Source: Rhodoluna sp. KAS3 | Lineage (GTDB): Bacteria; Actinomycetota; Actinomycetes; Actinomycetales; Microbacteriaceae | DNA: 64,000 nt | NCBI RefSeq assembly: GCF_026000575.1 | Contig: NZ_AP026910.1 | Span: forward strand, 682,001-746,000 | Reading direction: 5' to 3' | In this document: positions 1,252 to 7,145 of the stretch, in pieces | How positions within the stretch are numbered: position 1 is the stretch's first letter | How the letters are laid out: the number at the start of each line of letters is the position of its first letter | Notes under the pieces: generated by a model | The model's database searches: none | Seen by the model: the letters and a program-made list of their open reading frames with translations, nothing else | Told to the model about the DNA's origin: nothing | Position numbers and translations under genes: made by a program

Positions 1252-3333
1252 CTAGGCGTCGATTCGTTCTCGTTCGAAGCCATCGGCTGAGTCGATGATG
1301 AAATCACGTCTAGGGGCAACATCGTTACCCATGAGGAGCTCAAACATGGCCTCCGCCGCGGCAGCGTCTTCAACGCGAACACGCCTCAAGGTTCGTCTAG
1401 AGCGATCCATCGTGGTTTCGGCCAGCTGGTCCGCATCCATCTCGCCAAGTCCCTTGTAGCGCTGGATGGGCTCCTTGTATTTTTTGCCCGCCTTGGCTAA
1501 TTTGCCGAGTAGTTCCTCAAGCTCAGCTTGTGAATACGTGTAAATAACCTCGTTGGCCTTTGAACCGGCATTGATTACCTCCACCCGGTGCAGCGGCGGA
1601 ACGGCAGCAAACACACGCCCAGCTTCAACCAGAGGCCTCATGTAGCGGAAAAACAATGTGAGCAGCAAGGTTCGAATGTGCGCGCCATCGACGTCAGCAT
1701 CGCTCATTAGGATTACCTTGCCGTAACGTGCCACATCTAAGTCAAAGCTTCGCCCAGAGCCGGCCCCGAGCACTTGGATGATCGAGGCGCATTCGGTGTT
1801 AGACAACATGTCAGAAACCGAGGCCTTCTGGACGTTGAGAATTTTTCCTCGAATTGGAAGTAGCGCTTGGAACTCGCTGTCACGAGCTAGCTTCGCGGTT
1901 CCCAGAGCTGAGTCACCCTCAACAATAAATAGTTCAGAACCAGCAGTCTCTTGAGTCCTGCAATCTACCAACTTGGTTGGAAGGGAACTGCTCTCCAGAG
2001 CGTTCTTTCTGCGCTGCGTCTCTTTGTGTGTGCGAGCTGAAATGCGGGACTTCATCTCGGCAACTACCTTTTCGAGCAAAAGGGCCGCTTGCGACTTGTC
2101 GTCACGCTTTGGACTGTTGAATTTCTCAAGCAAAGCCCTAGAGACAACATTCGCAACAATGTTTTTCACGGCCGGGGTGCCAAGAATCTCCTTGGTTTGG
2201 CCCTCAAACTGAGGTTCAGCAAGGCGGACCGTGACCACTGCAGTTAGACCGGCAAGTGCGTCTTCTTTTTCAACTTTGTCGTTGCCAGCCTTCAATTTTC
2301 TTGCGTTGGCTTCAACCTGAGACCGCAGGACCTTGAGCACAGACTGTTCAAATCCGGCGATGTGCGTGCCGCCTTTAGGCGTCGCGATTATGTTGACGAA
2401 GCTCTTTACGTCTGTGTCGTACCCGGTCCCCCATCGGACGGCTATGTCTACGTCACACTTTCTGGAGACTTCGCGAGAAACCATGTTTCCGGACTCATCA
2501 AGCACCGGCACAGTTTCGTTGAAATCTCCCGAACCAGAGAGCTTCCAGGTGGCGGTTAGAGCTGCATCCTTGGCTAAATACTCAACGAATTCGGCAATTC
2601 CACCGTCGTACTTGAAATCGTGCTTTGCAATCTCCTGGCCTCGGCGGTCCTCAATGCCAATGGCAAGCCCCGGCACCAAAAAGGCGGTTTGCCGGGCACG
2701 ACTGAAAAGTTCATCGGACGCAAACACTGCATCTTTGATAAAGATCTGCGGGTCAGCCCAGTAGCGCACTCGCGTACCAGAGACACCCTTTGCTACTTTG
2801 CCAACCTCGCGCAAAACCGAAGCATCCTCGAATGGTTTGAATGGGTTTGACGGTGAAATACCGGTGGCGTCGTCAAATACTCCCGGCTCACCGCGACGGA
2901 AGGACATGGCGTAAGTCTTTCCGTCTCGATCAACCTGTACATCCAGACGCTGGGACAAGGCATTAACTACCGAAGCACCAACGCCATGAAGACCACCCGA
3001 CGCAGCATAGCTACCAGAGCCGAACTTTCCGCCTGCGTGGAGCTTGGTAAAGACCACCTCAACACCTGAGAGCCCGGTTTTAGGCTCAATGTCGACCGGT
3101 ATACCTCTCGCCCGGTCAGAAACCTCTACAGAGTTGTCGGCGTGAAGAACGATGTCAATTTGGTTACCATGCCCAGCCAGTGCCTCATCTACAGAGTTGT
3201 CGATAATCTCCCAAAGGCAGTGCATGAGGCCGCGGCTATCGGTCGAACCGATGTACATTCCAGGACGCTTGCGGACGGCATCCAAACCTTCTAGAACCGA
3301 TAGGTGGCGGGCTGAATAGTCTGAATTAGGCAC
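1252..3333 (-). CDS. parE: DNA topoisomerase IV subunit B (ParE)
   Basis: This is the ATPase subunit of topoisomerase IV, 693 aa. The N-terminal GHKL ATPase domain shows EIIDNSVDEALAG and the ATP lid GGLHGVGASVVNAL. The transducer domain follows, then the TOPRIM domain with the acidic metal-binding motifs EGDSALGTAK and DADVDGAHIRTLLL, and the C-terminal QRYKGLGEM motif. The EGDSALGTAK form is one I associate with actinobacterial ParE rather than GyrB. The start is GTG; TAACAT lies exactly 6 nt upstream (3340-3345), which fits a leaderless mRNA, and no Shine-Dalgarno sequence is visible. It converges with parC and diverges from the DUF7455 gene. Confidence 0.95.
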   Translation of the reverse strand: MPNSDYSARHLSVLEGLDAVRKRPGMYIGSTDSRGLMHCLWEIIDNSVDEALAGHGNQIDIVLHADNSVEVSDRARGIPVDIEPKTGLSGVEVVFTKLHAGGKFGSGSYAASGGLHGVGASVVNALSQRLDVQVDRDGKTYAMSFRRGEPGVFDDATGISPSNPFKPFEDASVLREVGKVAKGVSGTRVRYWADPQIFIKDAVFASDELFSRARQTAFLVPGLAIGIEDRRGQEIAKHDFKYDGGIAEFVEYLAKDAALTATWKLSGSGDFNETVPVLDESGNMVSREVSRKCDVDIAVRWGTGYDTDVKSFVNIIATPKGGTHIAGFEQSVLKVLRSQVEANARKLKAGNDKVEKEDALAGLTAVVTVRLAEPQFEGQTKEILGTPAVKNIVANVVSRALLEKFNSPKRDDKSQAALLLEKVVAEMKSRISARTHKETQRRKNALESSSLPTKLVDCRTQETAGSELFIVEGDSALGTAKLARDSEFQALLPIRGKILNVQKASVSDMLSNTECASIIQVLGAGSGRSFDLDVARYGKVILMSDADVDGAHIRTLLLTLFFRYMRPLVEAGRVFAAVPPLHRVEVINAGSKANEVIYTYSQAELEELLGKLAKAGKKYKEPIQRYKGLGEMDADQLAETTMDRSRRTLRRVRVEDAAAAEAMFELLMGNDVAPRRDFIIDSADGFERERIDA

Positions 3334-3472: not shown

Positions 3473-3694
3473 ATGCAAACTGAAGCAACGACTGAAACTG
3501 CCGAGACCACCGAGAGCTACCAACTTACTGCGTTGGACCGCTGCGATGAGTGTGGCGCTCAGGCTTATATTCGCGTCGAATTAGCCTCGGGTGACCTGCT
3601 ATTTTGCTCGCACCACGGTAACGAAAAGAAGCCAGCACTTGAGCCTGTGGCTGTTGCTTGGCACGACGAGAGCAAAAAACTACTCGCTCGCTAG
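3473..3694 (+). CDS. Small zinc-binding protein, DUF7455-like
   Basis: This is a 73 aa protein with an acidic Thr/Glu-rich N-terminus, then CDECGAQAYIRVELASG...FCSHHG, a CxxC...CxxH arrangement expected to bind one zinc ion. Its function is unknown; small proteins of this type are common in actinobacteria, often near sigA or topoisomerase genes. I chose the ATG at 3473 because GAGAGGAAAGG (3455-3465) sits just before it; an in-frame GTG at 3443 lacks such a site. Its last 15 bases overlap the end of the oppositely oriented GatD-like gene, and its terminator lies inside that gene. Confidence 0.8.
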   Translation: MQTEATTETAETTESYQLTALDRCDECGAQAYIRVELASGDLLFCSHHGNEKKPALEPVAVAWHDESKKLLAR

Positions 3695-4324
3695 TTCGGA
3701 TTCCAGCTTCCATATTTCTGAGACGTAGCCATCGATTGCGGTGGCTACGTTTTTATTTAAGTTGCCTGGCAGAACAGAACCACTTCGATCGAGAATCATT
3801 TCGAGAATCAGTGAAAGTAACTTCGGATTCTTAGCCAAGACCGGGCCATGTAGCTTTGTGCCAATAACGTTTCCGTGGCGAGAGATGACTGGCAAATCGT
3901 TGTCACTATTCACGTAGCCGAGAACCTCAAAACCCTCGAACGGCTCAACCCAAAACTTGGAAACTCGTTCGGTAGCAACAAAGCTGGTCTGAATGTGCCC
4001 AAGAAGCTGCCCATGTCTGTCGCTTCCCAGGTGTAGAACCTCGAAACCGGAGTTAACGGCTAGAGTCGGCACTCCGGAATTCAATACCTCAACCAACTCG
4101 GCACCACGGTGGGAACCAATTAGATTAATCTCACTCCAAGCGGCCTTGGAGCCATGGCCAACGAGCAAGAAGTCCAAATCCTTGGGAATTGCATCGGTCA
4201 AGGTCACAGAAACAACTTCGCAGGGAACACCTCTCCAAGCCAATTCCTTGGCCAGGACTAGGCTGTTGGCAGCATCACCATTCAGGTCTAGGTGGCCAGG
4301 ATACAAAACGCCAAGTCGAATCAT
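3680..4324 (-). CDS. GatD-like class I glutamine amidotransferase fold protein lacking the nucleophile Cys
   Basis: This 214 aa protein belongs to the GatD/CobQ-like class I amidotransferase family. In the lipid II isoglutaminyl synthase MurT/GatD, GatD releases ammonia from glutamine. The frame around the nucleophile elbow reads GVPTLAVNSGFEVLHLG where the family has A-[IV]-C-[AG]-G-[YF]-Q; the catalytic Cys is Asn91, codon AAC. The only cysteine in the protein is Cys35, elsewhere. The partner His is kept (GTKLHGPVLAKNP, His159), but the segment that usually contacts glutamine is changed to GYVNSDNDL. The fold and the MurT-like partner are retained while glutaminase activity is probably lost. 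The gene overlaps the upstream murT-like gene by ATGA. A noncanonical role in D-Glu alpha-carboxyl modification is inference. Confidence 0.82.
   Translation of the reverse strand: MIRLGVLYPGHLDLNGDAANSLVLAKELAWRGVPCEVVSVTLTDAIPKDLDFLLVGHGSKAAWSEINLIGSHRGAELVEVLNSGVPTLAVNSGFEVLHLGSDRHGQLLGHIQTSFVATERVSKFWVEPFEGFEVLGYVNSDNDLPVISRHGNVIGTKLHGPVLAKNPKLLSLILEMILDRSGSVLPGNLNKNVATAIDGYVSEIWKLESELASE
3723..3757 (+). terminator. Rho-independent terminator for the DUF7455-like gene
   Basis: ACGTAGCCA (3723-3731) pairs perfectly with TGGCTACGT (3742-3750) around a 10 nt loop and is followed by TTTTATTT on the plus strand. It is embedded in the C-terminal coding sequence of the minus-strand GatD-like gene. 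Confidence 0.8.
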
Positions 4325-5589
4325 CGAGATACTGCCTCCGGGTCGGTGAAACCAAGAATTCGTCGAGTTCGACGCATGGCGTCAGCAGAGAAAATTACCG
4401 TGCGACGAGAGTGTGTCGGTGCGGGAAGCGCAAAAAAGGTATCTAGGGCAACCTGCAAATCATCAGTTACGACTCCCACAGGGATCTCCGAATACGCTAA
4501 CCGAAGCGCCATTTCGTATGCGTTGTAACCAGAGACCACATCGGCATGTGACAGGGCGTCCATGTTCACGGTCCAGAGCCAAGACGGATCATGCACATCT
4601 CGCCCGATCATCACCATGATCCGCTCTGGGTTGGTGGTCAGGTTGTCAAGGTTTAGTTGGAAACTCATCGGGTTCTGAACAAGGATGAACTCAACTTCTT
4701 CACCGTTGACCACCGCGATCTCACCACGCGCAAACACCGGAGGCATAGTGGTGATGGTGTTGGAGGCCAATTCAAGGTCGAAATCTGCTCCGAGGTATGA
4801 CTCTGCGCTCTGCAAGGCTGCAATTGCATCAAGGGCAAAGTGCAAGCCACGATTTGGTAGCTCGACCTCAGCAGCTGCCCCACTCAAAACTACACTGGCA
4901 CGAAGACCGTCAACGCTCATAACCTCGGCGCTTGGAATTGGTCTTTCTATCTCTGCTTCATAGGTGGGTGCTGTACCCAGCCCGTGTTTTGCATCCGACA
5001 AGAGTGATCCTGTGATGCCGAACCATTTGGTGCCTGGATGCTGAACATCTCGGTTGATGATGAGAGTGTTTTGGTCGTCAGCGTTGAGTAAGACTGTGTC
5101 TTTTGCACGACGCGCGACCTGGGCCAACTTGTCGCGAACCACGGCTGGGTCGACAAATCGATCGAGTTGATCCTCGAGGACATTAAGAATCGTGACCTGT
5201 TTCGGTCGAATTAGGCGCGTGATCTCCTCGGCATGACCCTCATCCATTTCGAGAATCGCAACGTCACCCTTTATGCGACCAAAGATATCCGATTGCTCGA
5301 TGATCGATGAAAAGAACCCTTGCGCGATGTTGGCTGTGGACGGATTCGTAAACACAGTCTTGCCATGAGCACGAGCGATTCCAACAAGCATCTTTGTAGT
5401 CGTGGATTTACCGGCAGACCCCGTGACCACAATCAGTCCATCCGAGAACTTCGAGAGAGTTGCTGCCAAAAGGCCCGGCGCAACCTTACTTACGACAAGA
5501 CCAGGAAGGGCCGAACCGCCGCCAGGACGAACCAGTCTCACAAGGACACGAACAAACCGCCCTAGGAGAATGGCCGGCAAGAAACGCAT
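4321..5589 (-). CDS. murT: MurT-like Mur ligase family protein (DUF1727 C-terminal domain), no zinc ribbon
   Basis: This 422 aa Mur-ligase-type ATP-dependent amide ligase resembles MurT, which activates the alpha-carboxyl of D-Glu in lipid II. It has an N-terminal hydrophobic stretch (about residues 1-45), the P-loop TGSAGKSTTT (from residue 56; TGTNGKTT in most homologues), LEMDEGH, NVLEDQLDRF, and the C-terminal DUF1727 signature HDPSWLWTVNMD. Canonical MurT has a four-Cys zinc ribbon in its central domain; this protein has no cysteine, and the corresponding stretch is a short linker after KWFGITGS. It is translationally coupled: the ATG lies 2 nt after the rpoD stop, and its stop overlaps the GatD-like start. 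Catalytic core residues look intact, so ligase activity is plausible, but the amine donor is uncertain. Confidence 0.85.
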   Translation of the reverse strand: MRFLPAILLGRFVRVLVRLVRPGGGSALPGLVVSKVAPGLLAATLSKFSDGLIVVTGSAGKSTTTKMLVGIARAHGKTVFTNPSTANIAQGFFSSIIEQSDIFGRIKGDVAILEMDEGHAEEITRLIRPKQVTILNVLEDQLDRFVDPAVVRDKLAQVARRAKDTVLLNADDQNTLIINRDVQHPGTKWFGITGSLLSDAKHGLGTAPTYEAEIERPIPSAEVMSVDGLRASVVLSGAAAEVELPNRGLHFALDAIAALQSAESYLGADFDLELASNTITTMPPVFARGEIAVVNGEEVEFILVQNPMSFQLNLDNLTTNPERIMVMIGRDVHDPSWLWTVNMDALSHADVVSGYNAYEMALRLAYSEIPVGVVTDDLQVALDTFFALPAPTHSRRTVIFSADAMRRTRRILGFTDPEAVSR

Positions 5590-5591
5590 GC

Positions 5592-7145
5592 TTAGTTTTC
5601 TAGGTAGTCGCGAAGCATCTGTGAGCGCGATGGGTGGCGCAACTTAGACATTGTCTTCGACTCGATCTGACGAATACGCTCACGGGTTACCCCGAATTCC
5701 TCGCCGATCTGATCAAGTGTCTTTTGAACGCCGTCACCAAGACCGAAGCGACTTCTGATCACGCCTGCTTCACGCGGGTGTAGTGAATCAAGAATTCGCT
5801 CTAGCTCACGCTGAAGCATTGTGAAACCAACCGCATCTGCTGGCACAACCGCTTCGGTATCCTCGATGAGGTCACCGAACTCGCTGTCGCCGTCTTCACC
5901 CAATGGAGTCGAGAGCGAAATTGGCTCGCGCCCATACTTCTGAACCTCAACGACTTTCTCAGGAGTCATATCAAGTTCTCTAGCTAGCTCTTCAGGAGTC
6001 GGTTCGCGACCGAGATCCTGAAGCAACTGACGCTGGACTCGAGCAAGCTTGTTGATTACCTCAACCATGTGAACTGGAATTCGGATGGTTCGCGCCTGGT
6101 CGGCCATCGCTCGCGTAATCGCTTGGCGAATCCACCAGGTTGCATAGGTCGAAAACTTGTAGCCCTTGGTGTAGTCAAACTTCTCAACCGCACGGATAAG
6201 GCCGAGGTTACCCTCTTGAATTAGATCTAGGAACTGCATACCGCGGCCGGTGTAGCGCTTAGCTAGGCTAACCACCAGGCGCAGGTTTGCCTCTAGAAGG
6301 TGGCTCTTAGCTCGCTGACCGTCCTTGACAACCCACTTGAGGTCGCGCTCTTCTTCTCGCGTTAGACCGGTCGCCAAAGCCAATTTCTCTTCGGCAAAAA
6401 GGCCAGCTTCGATTCGCTTAGCAAGCTCAACTTCAAGCTCTGCGTTAAGAAGGGCTACCTTTCCAATTTGCTTTAGGTAGTCCTTTACCGGGTCGGCTGT
6501 CGCACCGGTGATGGTTGTGGTCTGAACCGGAATGTCATCTTCTTCACGATTCGAAAGAACCAAAGCGCCCTCAGGAACAACGATTTTTTCGGTTTCTTCG
6601 TGCTCGTCATCGTGGTGTTCATCATCAACCGCTGCGATGTCGACTGCTGAAGCTGCCTCAGCGACAATCTCTTCGACTGACTCAAGGTCATCGATCTCTT
6701 CTTCTTCGGCGTCATCGCCGAGACCCTTAGGTGCCTTTGCTGCTTTTGGAGTCTTGGCCTTCGGTGCAGCCTTTGCTTTCGGCGCGGCTTTCTTTACCTT
6801 TGTCTCAGATTCGACAACTGCGTCAAGATCAATAACCTCGACGACTGCTTCAACCTTTGCTTTGGCTGTGGTCTTACCTGCTGCCTTAGGCTTCGCAGGA
6901 GCCTTGGCGGCAGCCGGGGCATCGGTAACTGCCGACACGGCCTTCTTTGGCTTGACTGCAGCAGCTGGCTTTGCTGCCTCAGTTGAAGCCTTTGGTTGGG
7001 CCTTGGTCTTTACTGGAGTGCTAATGGTCTCAGGTTCCTTACTGATTGTTGCTGTGTCCCCCGACGACTTTTCATTTGGGTGCAAAAGGCTAGCTAGAAA
7101 CCCCCGTTTTTTGCCCGGCACAGAATCATTAGATTGCTTAGCCAC
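5592..7145 (-). CDS. rpoD: Primary RNA polymerase sigma factor (SigA/RpoD)
   Basis: This 517 aa group 1 sigma-70 factor has a long Lys/Ala/Pro-rich then acidic N-terminal region (about residues 1-210). Region 1.2 ([11 protein letters not shown]), region 2 ([38 protein letters not shown]), region 3 and region 4.2 ([20 protein letters not shown]...LRHPSRS) follow in order. It directs housekeeping transcription. The start is GTG with GAGAGG just upstream. The murT-like and gatD-like genes follow at once and are probably co-transcribed. The N-terminal extension is rich in simple Ala/Lys repeats, as in other actinobacterial SigA proteins. Confidence 0.96.

Follow-up and report, generated by a model that had tools for sequence, protein, structure and literature searches.

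MurT and GatD are described as jointly amidating D-Glu in the peptidoglycan precursor; MurT is considered to act in the manner of a Mur ligase and GatD to supply the ammonia (PMC6085368, PMC6113224). In the account of the Staphylococcus aureus enzyme, C94 and H189 are the catalytic residues of GatD, and D349 of MurT is placed in the catalytic triad (PMC6113224). A MurT relative is also reported from pseudomurein archaea, in species in which no GatD was found and which thus have no glutaminase partner (PMC11915815); unlike these archaea, the locus examined here keeps a GatD, one without the nucleophile. The pair of this locus resembles the solved MurT/GatD complexes of S. aureus, Streptococcus pneumoniae, and Streptococcus pyogenes (6gs2, 6fqb, and 9sq9) in two-gene order, folds, P-loop, MurT_C domain, and the catalytic Asp of MurT, but it differs from them in that GatD lacks the catalytic Cys and is shorter (214 aa, versus 243 to 263 in the solved chains), the zinc ribbon is missing, and the pair belongs to a separate clade with a fixed locus at rpoD; it also scores far below the NCBIfam equivalog cutoffs for the MurT/GatD lipid II isoglutaminyl synthase.

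Microbacteriaceae live in soil and water and have an unusual cell wall. The group B wall has long been used as a taxonomic marker, and in B-type walls the alpha-carboxyl of D-Glu bears the bridge. On chemical grounds, linking a bridge to this carboxyl takes the same activation as amidation, with a different amine. No established enzyme is known to us that attaches the first bridge residue to D-Glu, and we saw none named among the papers listed by full-text searches of the open-access literature. The Pontimonas genome paper, in its treatment of cross-links, reports that no pentaglycine-bridge enzymes were found and takes the cross-links as direct (PMC6106888); Pontimonas is a carrier of the Cys-less MurT described below.

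The window, that is, the whole 64-kb stretch of Rhodoluna DNA that was analyzed, has a G+C content of 53% and comes from a genome of 1.34 Mb, values that suit this genus; the 16S of the genome shares 98.5% identity over 1144 bases with that of a MAG titled Rhodoluna. Its gatD and murT genes lie on the minus strand and overlap by 4 nt, and murT is separated by 2 nt from a gene that we take from its sequence to be rpoD; the gene on the other side is parE-like, likewise named from its sequence. The features are as follows.

1252..3333, minus strand: parE-like topoisomerase/gyrase subunit B, which anchors the conserved locus on its downstream side (ORF, synteny)
3680..4324, minus strand: GatD-like protein of 214 aa, class I glutaminase fold without the nucleophile (ORF, NCBIfam profile, predicted model and Foldseek)
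3848..3850, minus strand: gatD codon 159, His, aligned with the catalytic His (S. aureus GatD alignment)
4052..4054, minus strand: gatD codon 91, AAC (Asn), aligned with the catalytic Cys (S. aureus GatD alignment; codon identical in sister species G092)
4321..5589, minus strand: MurT-like Mur ligase of 422 aa without cysteines (ORF, Pfam profiles, predicted model and Foldseek)
4588..4590, minus strand: MurT Asp334 in HDPSW, corresponding to D349 of S. aureus MurT (alignment; invariant in 26 rows)
5401..5424, minus strand: MurT P-loop TGSAGKST, codons 56 to 63 (sequence, 26-row alignment)
5592..7145, minus strand: rpoD (sigma factor), which anchors the conserved locus on its upstream side (ORF, synteny)

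A small plus-strand ORF with CDECG and CSHHG motifs, probably zinc binding, occupies positions 3473 to 3694 and overlaps the 3' end of gatD on the opposite strand.

The original prediction held that the GatD-like protein has Asn at the nucleophile position and keeps the catalytic His, and that the MurT-like protein is free of Cys and yet retains the P-loop and the DPSW motif. All of this agrees with our alignments. In the pairwise alignment with S. aureus GatD, Asn91 stands opposite the C of GLTICGGYQFL, and His159, the H of GTKLHGP, stands opposite that of GTYLHGP. The protein matched no Pfam family in the profile search and reached 48.8 bits against the NCBIfam GatD profile NF052463 (equivalog cutoff, 450), and its predicted model (pLDDT 87.4) found S. 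aureus GatD (6gs2_A) as the top Foldseek match. MurT exceeds the Pfam cutoffs for PF08353 (MurT_C, 39.7 bits) and PF08245 (Mur_ligase_M, 39.6 bits), scores 91.2 bits against an NCBIfam equivalog cutoff of 800, and yields a model (pLDDT 89.5) whose top Foldseek match is S. pyogenes MurT (9sq9_B). Its D334 lies opposite S. aureus D349 when the position is counted by hand in the pairwise alignment, and the ligase motifs, including this residue, are invariant in 26 rows.

The zinc ribbon was also correctly predicted to be absent, as the window MurT has no Cys at all, but its value as a distinguishing sign did not hold up. A CxxC-x(10-30)-CxxC pattern was present in just 2 of 30 MurT frames, read from stop to stop, from other families, and the ribbon is described as confined to a subset of bacteria (PMC6113224), so that its absence is not telling. 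Loss of the ribbon was therefore rejected as a marker, since other actinobacterial MurTs seldom have the ribbon.

Both genes are intact, as originally proposed. Between the window and its sister species (G092), dN/dS is 0.169 for gatD and 0.074 for murT, indicating purifying selection, and the sister species likewise has AAC (Asn) at the nucleophile codon; a sequencing error at codon 91 or a pseudogene is thus unlikely. A separate canonical MurT/GatD, which had been raised as a possible objection, was not found: the profile search of the genome gave one MurT_C match and one match of MurT strength, that of the pair itself.

Loss of the nucleophile is widespread in the family. Of 108 distinct Microbacteriaceae GatDs examined, 92 lack the Cys and 16 retain it (109 rows, with the G102 locus present twice, as L022 and L136; eight MurT matches, the second G279 copy among them, are excluded), whereas all 30 GatDs compared from six other families in the order keep it, these being the best 30 of 50 MurT_C matches. 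A biased sample of 30 family loci, retrieved with the window's own GatD as query, had no Cys in any. What replaces the Cys is free to vary, Gly being commonest, followed by Ala, Asn, Ser, His, and Thr, and a His stands at the catalytic-His place in only 72 of the 108 distinct family GatDs, Cys-bearing ones counted in; GatD residues G160, P161, and P167 are conserved across the diverged Cys-less clade. In a MurT tree of 152 rows built by a quick method, from which near-duplicate or short loci, picked by hand, and all rows below 300 aa were left out, 94 of the 98 Cys-less rows (including L113, a locus for which no GatD was found) form a single clade with an SH-aLRT of 100, and four long-branched Cys-less rows fall outside it. 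The Cys-bearing MurTs of the family are dispersed among MurTs from other families, and the Leucobacter ones group together. Two genomes (G054 and G066) carry a Cys-less and a Cys-bearing pair together, and G279, judged by its MurT scores, probably holds both kinds as well. The tree clade and the genomes with both kinds indicate that the Cys-less pair represents a lineage that separated long ago rather than a recent accident.

Two groups of genomes deserve mention apart from this pattern. In Aurantimicrobium and two related genomes (L128, L129, and L438), a Cys-bearing GatD accompanies a very diverged MurT, a combination that probably came from a distant source. A 0.9-Mb MAG titled Auritidibacter (16S locus L305) has a Rhodoluna-like murT-gatD adjoining rpoD (L424), and its 16S is 95.8% identical to that of the window; the title is probably wrong.

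The coupling to rpoD noted in the original prediction extends well beyond Rhodoluna. The pair adjoins rpoD in 48 of 51 Cys-less genomes, in 41 of which the entire rpoD-parE interval was covered, whereas rpoD gave no match within 1.5 kb of the 8 named Cys-bearing pairs or the 30 pairs from other families. Among 29 family genomes without the Cys-less pair, rpoD is followed by a CofE-like gene (PF01996) in 17, directly by parE in 9, and in the remaining 3 by what we take from its sequence to be an amino-acid ABC transporter. (The 29, 41, and 51 are distinct genomes; G019 is the same as G317, and G067 the same as G343.) Within the rpoD-parE interval, the CofE-like gene and the Cys-less pair are mutually exclusive: the former is present in 17 of 22 hand-chosen MurT-less genomes, in none of 7 with a Cys-bearing MurT, and in none of the 41 Cys-less genomes, and Fisher values on these counts ignore shared ancestry. 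The same exchange is seen at close range, as Microbacterium esteraromaticum has MurT/GatD plus a racemase while five other Microbacterium genomes have a CofE-like gene, an ATP-grasp gene, and a racemase, and within group g57 one genome (G281) has the pair and another (G057) the CofE cassette. Exclusivity of two ligases in one slot suggests one shared job. The slot CofE-like gene is lacking in 12 of the 29 genomes, namely, five MurT-less genomes and seven with a Cys-bearing MurT, so that at least one more solution must exist.

CofE is the F420-0:gamma-glutamyl ligase, and PF01996 is an amide ligase family, with no kinship to MurT known to us. The slot occupants are its relatives: two that were scanned score 27.4 and 34.6 bits, with a cutoff for true CofE of 180.65. 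An example lies behind rpoD at L472:11255-11947, and 16 further MurT-less genomes are alike, often with the ATP-grasp protein PF14397. Of 20 downstream stretches compared, 16 contain the CofE-like cluster, 14 an ATP-grasp cluster (PF14397), and 9 an alanine-racemase-like cluster (PF01168, PF00842), cluster representatives having been scanned with profiles, and a diaminobutyrate aminotransferase is present in three CofE-type slots (Gulosibacter hominis, G020, and G057). The same racemase family adjoins Cys-less gatD in 4 of the 41 complete intervals, and PF14397 adjoins the Cys-less pair in three genomes (G009, G018, and G032); 34 of the 41 intervals hold no racemase, ATP-grasp, or other partner gene, and the 64-kb window gave no match anywhere for CofE-like, racemase, ATP-grasp, or aminotransferase genes. 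In some genomes the slot racemase has a KADAYGHG motif and scores near the Alr cutoff and may be an ordinary alanine racemase; the Microbacterium form has an unusual KDD version of the motif. In G053, a highly diverged Cys-less MurT directly adjoins a CofE-like gene (L505, 9343-11396), that is, outside the slot, and the 19-kb stretch around this MurT gave no rpoD match.

Joining a bridge to the D-Glu carboxyl needs the same activation with another amine. A glutaminase-dead pair in such a wall, occupying a slot that elsewhere has another amide ligase and racemases, is best explained as a bridge amino acid ligase, and we lean toward reading the Cys-less MurT/GatD as a repurposed lipid II amidotransferase, now a predicted ligase for the bridge amino acid at the D-Glu alpha-carboxyl. 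MurT would still use ATP to activate this carboxyl in the peptidoglycan precursor, and the attacking amine would be the amino group of an amino acid rather than glutamine-derived ammonia. In Rhodoluna the incoming amino acid would most likely be D-diaminobutyrate, the bridge residue reported for that genus, and GatD may serve as a noncatalytic subunit that holds MurT in shape and possibly binds the incoming amino acid. The rpoD-parE slot would then be the group B bridge locus of Microbacteriaceae, with a CofE-like ligase, usually accompanied by an ATP-grasp protein, replacing the pair in other genera. We read the Cys-less pair as one of at least two interchangeable predicted ligases for the D-Glu alpha-carboxyl. 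The broader proposal is held more tentatively, at somewhat below even chances: that unrelated carboxyl-activating ligases (glutaminase-dead MurT/GatD, or CofE-like plus ATP-grasp) replace one another at this locus to build the D-Glu-linked bridge, each with a racemase or diamino-acid enzyme that in many genomes is encoded in the same interval. The find supplies candidate bridge enzymes in two lineages together with the locus in which to look for them, and shows that a glutaminase-dead amidotransferase has been retained as an apparently working enzyme.

The repurposing envisaged in the original prediction is favored in part: by the finding of no canonical copy in the genome, by a Cys loss that, among the loci compared, occurs only in the window's family, by the conserved MurT motifs, and by selection on both genes; it gains further support from a slot that swaps with a CofE-like ligase and carries racemase, ATP-grasp, or diaminobutyrate aminotransferase genes. 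Other readings must accommodate the same observations. Were the pair still amidating the alpha-carboxyl with free ammonium or the ammonia of another glutaminase, GatD being a structural relic, the exchange with the CofE-like ligase and the racemase neighbors would be left unexplained, the carboxyl concerned would be one that already bears the bridge in B-type walls, and two Cys-less genomes would have a Cys-bearing pair besides. We consider this reading unlikely, even though MurT retains an amidation-type active site and amidated D-Glu is reported among the muropeptides of Clavibacter michiganensis (PMC9603630), because the replacements C94S/C94G and D349N are described as abolishing or severely reducing amidation in S. 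aureus (PMC6113224).

A role as an amino acid ligase serving some other wall decoration or acceptor than the main bridge would fit the many group B genomes that lack the pair and the two Cys-less genomes that carry a Cys-bearing pair as well; the sharing of one slot with a second ligase, never both at once, suggests instead a common job, and MurT/GatD is described as acting on lipid II at the alpha-carboxyl of D-Glu (PMC6085368, PMC6113224), so that this reading, too, appears improbable. Still further from our expectation is a drifting pair, with GatD a noncatalytic regulator and MurT an idling ATPase. The free choice of residue at the nucleophile position (G, A, N, S, H, or T) and the variable His position would suit it, but it has to contend with dN/dS values of 0.07 to 0.17 between two close species, with the MurT P-loop and Asp and GatD G160, P161, and P167 conserved over a diverged clade, and with conserved synteny, and we regard it as very improbable.

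The bridge ligase reading was set against named genomes and their wall types. From 118 named 16S loci, 42 genomes were picked for genus breadth and searched, absence of MurT meaning no match at E <= 1e-18; in the family at large, 43 genomes gave no strong MurT match, and 20 of them were re-searched. The Cys-less pair was found in 17 of the 42 (Leifsonia, Glaciibacter, four Agromyces, two Cryobacterium, Plantibacter, Rhodoluna, MWH-Ta3, Mycetocola, Zimmermannella alba, M. esteraromaticum, Arenivirga, Aquiluna, and one probably mislabelled MAG) and a Cys-bearing pair alone in 8 (five Leucobacter, Pseudoclavibacter soli, Agrococcus jejuensis, and Aurantimicrobium), and MurT was unmatched at that threshold in 17 (12 of 13 Microbacterium, two Gulosibacter, Klugiella, Microcella, and Agrococcus baldri). 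All of these genera are taken to be group B. The walls reported are B2beta (B10) with the peptides Gly-D-Glu and D-Ala-D-Dab in Rhodoluna lacicola (PMC4156110), a B-type wall with diaminobutyrate (DAB) in Leucobacter chironomi (PMC4511665), DAB or D-ornithine in Gulosibacter (PMC6113628), D-ornithine, L-lysine, or DAB in Microbacterium (PMC10757982), DAB in Agrococcus (PMC6196244), and B2gamma with DAB in Cryobacterium (PMC7033078). Set against these wall types, the distribution indicates that neither the pair nor its Cys loss simply marks group B or DAB. The expectation that Cys loss simply tracks group B was thus rejected as a strict rule, since Leucobacter, with group B and DAB, keeps the Cys and 17 of the 42 genomes have no MurT match; for the same reason, together with the 8 genomes that have a Cys-bearing pair only, the Cys-less pair is not present in all group B species.

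Two further ideas were tried. MurT subtypes (LVQN versus MxKN) looked promising as readers of the diamino acid in a few genera and were then dropped; diaminobutyrate aminotransferase was found with both subtypes and is missing from several DAB genera. An extra Mur ligase as substitute in MurT-less genomes proved mostly not to be the case: of 14 MurT-less named genomes, 11 have five Mur_ligase_M matches, the number expected for MurC to MurF plus FolC, and three have six. In some genomes, for example, G304 and G311 (Microbacterium), G332 (Gulosibacter), and G335 (Mycetocola), one of the two top-scoring Mur_ligase_M genes is located apart from the remaining mur genes; it is probably murE. Four mur genes stand together in G339 (Leifsonia) and others, and the separation elsewhere may accompany a different residue at position 3.
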